Source: Candidatus Nanohalarchaeota archaeon
GTDB taxonomy: Archaea > Nanohalarchaeota > Nanosalinia > Nanosalinales > Nanosalinaceae
Direction of reading: 5' to 3'
Assembly (NCBI GenBank): GCA_022729235.1
Contig: JALDAJ010000001.1
Span: 886,442 to 950,441, forward strand
DNA length: 64,000 nucleotides
Each line of letters begins with the position of its first letter. Positions within the stretch are counted from its first letter, which is position 1. The notes beneath the pieces are model-generated. The model did not search any database. It was not told the origin of the DNA and saw only the letters and a list, made by a program, of their open reading frames with translations. Of the stretch, positions 35,414-44,994 are shown one piece after another. The position numbers and the translations under genes were made by a program.

Positions 35414-35432
35414 TGGGGTGGGAGGGATTTGA
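35414..35432 (-). repeat. Partial copy of the tRNA-Trp 3' end
   Basis: These 19 bp are identical to 35487-35505, the 3' acceptor and T-loop part of tRNA-Trp, at 73 bp distance. On the transcript strand the copy lies downstream of the tRNA. Its GATTTGA (35426-35432) can pair with TCAAATC at 35457-35463, with inner GAAGAA/TTCTTC pairing, so the copy forms part of a stem-loop. Confidence 0.65.
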
Positions 35433-35486
35433 GTCGAAGAAACAAGTTCTTCTCAATCAAATCGCTCCTGGAGCATATCTCTGATA

Positions 35487-35662
35487 TGGGGTGGGAGGGA
35501 TTTGAACCCGCAACCTTCCGCTAGCTCCTGCAAGTTTTAATCATCGGAATCGAAGGCAAGCCTTCTCAAACCGACACGTCAGACGAGTCGGTGTTCCTCA
35601 TACCTCCAAAGTTGGAAAACTGCTCTGGAGGCGGACGCTCTCCCAAGTTGAGCTACCACCCC
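35487..35662 (-). tRNA. tRNA-Trp(CCA) with intron
   Basis: On the minus strand the acceptor GGGGTGG (35662-35656) pairs with CCACCCC (35494-35488), with discriminator A at 35487. D arm GCTC/GAGC; anticodon stem TCCGC/GCGGA; loop CTCCAGA with anticodon CCA (35628-35626); T loop TTCAAAT. One mismatch appears in the T stem. An intron of about 102 nt (35624-35523) interrupts the loop after position 37. The exon-intron ends form CTCC/GGAG with 3-nt bulges AGA and CTA, as in a relaxed bulge-helix-bulge cut by the archaeal splicing enzyme. CCA is not encoded. Confidence 0.9.
35523..35624 (-). ncRNA. tRNA-Trp intron, possible box C/D guide
   Basis: In haloarchaea and other euryarchaea this intron often encodes a box C/D RNA that guides 2'-O-methylation of the pre-tRNA. 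Here the segment TTTGGAGGT is complementary to the anticodon region ACCTCCA/G..., and is followed at once by ATGA. If ATGA is a degenerate D box, the fifth base before it faces C34. GATGA and CTGA also occur. However, two strong hairpins (CCGAC/GTCGG and GAAGG/CCTTC) cross the region, so this is a candidate only. Confidence 0.4.
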
Positions 35663-44730: not shown

Positions 44731-44750
44731 GAAGACCTGGAAAGGTCTTC
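44731..44750 (+). other. Perfect 8-bp hairpin with GNRA-type loop
   Basis: GAAGACCT pairs with AGGTCTTC around GGAA, a GNRA tetraloop. It lies between the MBL gene and the tRNA-Leu region without any reading frame. It may be part of an untranslated RNA or a processing signal. Confidence 0.45.
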
Positions 44751-44762
44751 TGTACCAACATA

Positions 44763-44787
44763 TTTACCCCATGCGGGGGTAGCCAAG
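44763..44787 (+). repeat. Partial copy of the tRNA-Leu 5' end with its leader
   Basis: These 25 bp are identical to 44826-44850, which cover the 10-bp leader and the first 15 bases of tRNA-Leu, at 63 bp distance. After the copy, sequence departs and can fold back: GGGGGT (44775-44780) pairs with ACCCCC (44800-44805), with inner CAAG/CTTG pairing. So the copy is part of a stem-loop rather than a tRNA. Confidence 0.65.
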
Positions 44788-44835
44788 AATAGCTTGCCAA
44801 CCCCCTCAAAAACAATAGGCAAGCCTTTACCCCAT

Positions 44836-44994
44836 GCGGGGGTAGCCAAGTGGTCAAAGGCGCAGCGTTGAGGTCCGGCTTTTCTTCCACAAGGAAGATG
44901 ACCGGTCGAGAAAATCCTTGACTTTCGAAATGGGATTTTCGATTCAAATGCGCTGTCTCGTAGGAGTTCCGGGGTTCGAATCCTCGCCCCCGCA
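44836..44994 (+). tRNA. tRNA-Leu(GAG) with intron
   Basis: Acceptor GCGGGGG (44836-44842) pairs with CCCCCGC (44987-44993), discriminator A at 44994. The D arm is GCC/GGC, the anticodon stem CAGCG/CGCTG, and the loop TTGAGG-G has anticodon GAG (44870-44872). The variable region between the anticodon stem and T arm is long, as in tRNA-Leu (CTC/GAG arm). An intron of 76 nt (44874-44949) follows position 37; its ends pair as TTGA/TCAA with bulges GGT and ATG. Within it an 8-bp stem GAAAATCC/GGATTTTC forms. CCA is not encoded. Confidence 0.9.

Follow-up and report, generated by a model that had tools for sequence, protein, structure and literature searches.

The 3' end of an intron-bearing tRNA-Trp gene in a Nanohaloarchaeota genome is present twice, once in the gene itself and once in a hairpin just beyond it, raising the question of what this second copy represents and how it came to lie there. 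We analysed a window of 64 kb from this 1.03-Mb single-contig genome (G000), in which an earlier note had described the last 19 nt of tRNA-Trp as being repeated 73 bp downstream on the transcript strand, with GAUUUGA/UCAAAUC pairing around an inner GAAGAA/UUCUUC stem. A protein encoded near the tRNA has its best matches in Nanohaloarchaea (82% and 76% identity). The repeat is without mismatch (Table 1) and both stems are present in the computed fold, in which an additional GGAG/CUCC pairing takes the hairpin beyond the stems first named. The copy begins 54 bp past the end of tRNA-Trp and its alignment score of 38 was equalled by none of 300 dinucleotide shuffles; the 73-nt stretch formed by insert and copy folds at -20 kcal/mol (z = -3.57). 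The tRNA-Trp orthologs of G006, G009, G017, G003 and G001 (five genomes) had no 3' copy; the window genome is the sole member of its genus, and the nearest empty Trp sites are those of other genera. The tRNA-Trp intron (window positions ~35513-35616) also contains a hairpin, GAGAAGGCTTGCCTTCGA, that is extra with respect to the relatives. We consider that the Trp copy is probably the far end of a hairpin-forming insert (54 bp + 19 bp) abutting the gene on its 3' side, that many inserts of this kind occur at Nanohaloarchaeota tRNA ends, and that they are probably mobile-like elements duplicating the stretch from a tRNA loop to the end of the gene.

Table 1. Features of the tRNA-Trp and tRNA-Leu loci, given as positions in the window.
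Feature	Position	Strand	Basis
tRNA-Trp gene, anticodon CCA, with anticodon-loop intron	35487..35662	-	Rfam RF00005, 45.7 bits; orthologs in five other genomes
Proximal copy: final 19 nt of the intact gene, from T-loop to base 73	35487..35505	-	exact repeat
54-bp insert: linker TATCAGAGATATGC, arm GGAGCGATTTGA, GAAGAA/TTCTTC hairpin	35433..35486	-	homology to tRNA-Lys insert; fold z -3.57 with copy
Distal copy of tRNA-Trp 3' end	35414..35432	-	exact repeat
tRNA-Leu (GAG) gene with intron	44836..44994	+	Rfam 41.1 bits
Distal 5' copy: 10-nt leader and tRNA-Leu bases 1-15	44763..44787	+	25-bp exact repeat
48-bp insert at tRNA-Leu 5' end: CTTGCCAACCCCC arm complementary to copy, A-rich stretch, GGCAAGC	44788..44835	+	

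As the earlier note had also observed, the intron-bearing tRNA-Leu of the window has a partial copy of its 5' end (25 bp exact, 44763-44787 versus 44826-44850) and the tRNA-Ala has no copy of its own end. Upstream of the Leu 5' copy (44731-44750), CGAAGACC and GGTCTTCTG form a hairpin whose shape resembles that of the Trp hairpin. The Rfam scan of the window yielded tRNAs and no other RNA family. Readings as box C/D, H/ACA or kink-turn elements were weighed by eye and not upheld, and a window-wide hairpin family was rejected, the 84 hairpins counted being no excess over the 85 to 91 found in shuffled sequences.

Copies of tRNA ends are not confined to these two genes. In the 30 tRNAs detected by the Rfam model in the window genome, surveyed with 1.5 kb on either side, 15 had a copy of their own end, 11 on the 3' side and four on the 5' side; this set is incomplete, because multi-intron tRNAs are missed by the model, and degenerate copies are undercounted. 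A copy was defined as the 3' end downstream or the 5' end upstream, within 150 bp and with a score of at least 22, the threshold and the alignments being our own choice; none of 900 comparisons with control flanks 400-550 bp away from the same tRNAs reached this score (3' ends). ARAGORN missed the intron-bearing tRNAs, and the sequence examined consisted of the stretches around tRNAs and the pattern matches. Other intron-bearing tRNAs of the genome were found to have copies (6/15 in total), but so were 9 of the 15 intron-less ones, and the suggestion that copies accompany introns is rejected, with Fisher p = 0.82 over nine genomes. Among the relatives, for which the tRNA sets are samples, copies were present in G004, G008, G015, G002 and G001 (related genera), and none exceeded the threshold in G003 or G006 (27 sampled tRNAs each, 54 in all). 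The tRNA-end copies are thus a family-wide trait with gaps, several genera having them and others being without. The tRNAs missed by the Rfam model include a G003 tRNA-Gln (L192 flanks), whose D-loop and anticodon loop each contain an insertion, and the intron-containing Ser tRNA that adjoins it. In the window genome, tRNA-Gly(GCC) (L030, around and upstream of G000:C1:41423-41493) carries a D-loop insertion of ~50 nt with a 9-bp direct repeat, AGTGGCTAA, on either side, and this insertion is possibly a D-loop intron.

The borders of the copies are tight. All 12 of the 5' copies begin at tRNA base 1 and run to bases 12-16, which lie within the D-loop or shortly before it, and 18 of the 22 3' copies stop at base 73, with 20 of the 22 beginning within bases 48-57, in or near the T-loop. 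The copies are 11-25 bp long and the inserts, which are gene-free, about 25-110 bp. Non-canonical bulge-helix-bulge introns in the T- or D-loop would be one reading of such an arrangement, the true exon then being the far copy, and D-loop introns do seem to be present in the family, in the G003 tRNA-Gln and probably in tRNA-Gly(GCC) with its 9-bp repeat. However, the near tRNA is complete without any removal, the far copy of L160 does not match the acceptor stem, many far copies are degenerate and inspection by eye revealed no clear bulge-helix-bulge at the Trp junctions. We regard this reading as the least credible of those considered here.

Insertion can be recognised directly where filled and empty orthologs are compared. 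The congeneric genomes G008 and G015 often differ in this respect at orthologous tRNAs, providing eight usable pairs (a ninth, L288/L229, was excluded because its members are not true orthologs). In six of the eight pairs, the sequence past the far copy aligned with the DNA bordering the tRNA in the empty ortholog (each p = 1/301), with scores of 48 (L276/L286), 41 (L277/L285), 71 (L203/L204), 53.5 (L217/L221), 24.5 (L270/L279) and 31 (L273/L282), whereas the inserts themselves had no match to the ortholog flank at these pairs (p 0.29-0.87). Pair L223/L226 showed a partial match (p 0.01) and pair L227/L228 was uninformative. At 5' inserts, the promoter region CTTAAAGATTCGGTTG still lies ahead of the far 5' copy. 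In L277, a tRNA-Ser(CGA), the far copy GCGCTGGCG is identical to the 3' end of the ortholog and the near copy carries a change. These six congeneric loci are true insertions with end duplication, and the far copy marks the former gene end. By analogy with them, the distal Trp copy would be the displaced original end of the gene, and we infer from the same loci, and from the kinship of the Trp insert with an insert at tRNA-Lys, that the Trp insert arose by the same end-duplicating insertion.

The same comparison bears on local tandem duplication of the tRNA end and its flank by replication slippage, followed by drift. Tandem units do occur: a Leu gene of G001 has two exact 61-bp units, with a 79-bp perfect run, which are a recent exact tandem duplication, and two units are found in succession at tRNA-Lys (L009). 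However, the spacer left by a tandem duplication would be homologous to the ancestral flanking DNA, which is not what was found in the six filled/empty pairs, and this origin is therefore excluded at those loci; furthermore, spacer sequence is common to unrelated tRNA loci. Individual cases of tandem duplication could remain, but as a general account it is very improbable.

The insert sequences are diverse, with clear kinship in a minority only, and the alignment of 3' elements across loci is poor. The Trp and Lys inserts of the window genome are related (79% over 91 bp, E 4e-15 including the tRNA part; score 60 without it), as are Gly (G015) and Glu (G008) inserts and the Ala and Gly inserts of G000, and two Ser inserts of G004 are identical. 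With the tRNA copies excluded, shuffled and reversed controls gave top scores of 30 (2975 comparisons) and 26 (595 comparisons). A recurrent hairpin, module Y, consists of a constant loop, GTTACGCT, followed by a constant ACGCAAT, between covarying arms. It was found at 13 sites in five Nanohaloarchaeota genomes, of which ten lie in tRNA introns or adjoin a tRNA end and three are elsewhere; it lies directly at tRNA 3' ends, is reversed at tRNA 5' ends and also occurs in tRNA introns (loci among L294-L306), and in L294 it is located between an intact tRNA-Asp and the far 3' copy. The exact pattern of module Y had no match in the window genome. Terminal inverted repeats were not clearly visible in the Trp insert; in L294 and L303, modules face in opposite directions at both ends. 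A further module found next to tRNAs, consisting of AAACTnnnAGTTTGATCANCA and then a hairpin, was seen in the flanks of L002, L030, L146, L148, L165, L207 and L275, in the sense orientation downstream of tRNAs and as the reverse complement upstream.

The main rival to mobile-like insertion is that insert and copy form a selected, structured leader or trailer RNA, acting for instance as a protein-binding or processing element or as the precursor of a stable tRNA-derived small RNA. The strong hairpins (z -3.57) and the constant loops on covarying arms of module Y elements are consistent with such a function. The 5' insert of tRNA-Leu is common to the Leu genes of G000, G004 and G008, three genera in which the core TTGCCAACCC is conserved, and is similar in G003 and G001. 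In addition, in several cases the insert arm fits the T-stem of its own tRNA, other tRNAs giving an equal or better fit in 0/50 cases for Ala, 2/50 for Leu, 3/50 for Phe, 4-5/50 for Glu and 4/50 for Gly. However, this fit, striking by eye, is no more than suggestive when all cases are taken together (p = 0.06). Furthermore, presence or absence varies at many tRNAs between the two congeneric species, and no copy above threshold was detected among the 54 tRNAs sampled from G003 and G006; the element is therefore dispensable. We consider a selected RNA to be unlikely as the general explanation, albeit the strongest competitor to the insertion of mobile-like elements.

An intact tRNA accompanied by a partial copy of its own end is the classic signature of integrative elements (PMC3293823, PMC3119063, PMC9897764), and the earlier note had raised the possibility of an attachment-site remnant or exchange scar. 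This proposal stands in outline, since true insertions were found with the far copy at the old gene end, but not in the form of a conventional integrase scar, the inserts being ~25-110 bp long, gene-free and present at half of the tRNAs. At the Trp locus, the intact tRNA and the partial end copy are there, but no integrase lies in or next to the 54-bp insert: the only two matches to the tyrosine-recombinase family PF00589 in the genome are about 59 and 80 kb away from tRNA-Trp, so that the integrase-like element sought in its vicinity was not found. An ORF of 472 aa with a phage-integrase domain (L307, G000:C1:862694-863212) is located ~0.7 kb downstream of tRNA-Thr(GGT) (863906-864053) and is a possible ordinary integrated element. 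The inserts might still be scars of tyrosine-integrase elements of the SSV or pNOB8 type, which use tRNA ends as attachment sites, shrunk by internal deletion, and the presence of two such matches, one of them close to a tRNA, is in keeping with this idea. However, the copies are only 11-25 bp long, the inserts are tiny and rich in hairpins, no larger relative was detected at the tRNAs examined, and hairpin sequence is shared by inserts at different tRNAs. We consequently view shrunken integrase scars as improbable. A viral source was rejected, pattern scans of viral contigs having returned only coding matches unrelated to the elements.

Known mobile elements provide further points of comparison. 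Archaeal integrative elements extend over kilobases and include an integrase gene (PMC3293823, PMC3119063, PMC9897764). Those that target tRNAs, such as SSV/pNOB8-type elements, ICEs and the Caldiarchaeum tRNA-Thr element (PMC3293823), share with the inserts an intact tRNA on one side and a partial end copy on the other, whereas the inserts span tens of bp, lack an integrase and occur at both tRNA ends. The casposon MetMaz-C1 is about 10 kb long, its inverted repeats measuring 31 nt and its duplication 14 nt (PMC10359463), whereas the inserts reach at most about 110 bp. Mitochondrial repetitive or double hairpin elements (PMC2800124), including a family of yeast mitochondrial mobile DNA (PMC4478555), are likewise short, gene-free hairpin units for which mobility has been proposed, patchily distributed among close relatives, and the presence/absence variation of the present units constitutes a functional analogy with them. 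The inserts differ in being located in a cellular archaeal genome, in their strong bias to tRNA ends and introns and in the duplication of 11-25 bp of a tRNA end. MITEs and REP-like palindromic elements (reviewed in PMC10969869) are small, non-coding, palindromic, multicopy and mobile-like. The insert families and module Y are similarly small palindromic non-coding repeats at several genome sites, and the end duplication beside empty orthologs corresponds to a target-site duplication. However, no partner transposase was found (the Y1 transposase of IS200/IS605, PF01797, the sole type searched, was absent from 8/8 genomes), and what is duplicated here is a functional gene end, bounded at fixed positions. 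In size and habit, the inserts are nearer to mitochondrial hairpin elements and MITEs than to integrative elements.

The inserts are probably mobile DNA with a way of life like that of MITEs or mitochondrial hairpin elements. An insertion duplicates the stretch from a tRNA loop to the gene end, starting from the T-loop for 3' inserts and from the D-loop for 5' inserts; the duplication may be produced when a staggered break is made, or the template is switched, within this stretch. One copy completes the intact tRNA and the other remains beside the old flanking DNA. The tRNA stays intact owing to the duplication, which may be why inserts are tolerated at its ends. A 5' insert sits between promoter and tRNA and would therefore be expected to be transcribed within the pre-tRNA, giving a longer leader; RNase P and RNase Z would presumably remove the inserts as leader or trailer. 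The occurrence of module Y in tRNA introns, at tRNA 3' ends and, reversed, at 5' ends would be in keeping with a common source, and we tentatively suggest, as a rather unlikely extension, that a single class of hairpin elements colonises all three tRNA loops, with insertion into the anticodon loop yielding a spliced intron and insertion at the D- and T-loops yielding an end duplication with a leader or trailer insert.

We found no description of a fixed tRNA-end duplication in the open-licence literature, and its novelty is provisional. The gain of archaeal tRNA introns and the fragmentation of tRNA genes are an open question, and one published model of these processes rests on a single population (PMC3293823). 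The Nanohaloarchaeota provide many gains of tRNA-end inserts that can be compared filled and empty in close genomes, with fixed loop borders and related modules in introns, and insertion models are thereby directly testable. If the three-loop reading is true, the introns of archaeal tRNA genes would share a source with the fragments of tRNA ends. In such genomes, tRNA 'fragments' need not be split tRNAs or proviral scars.
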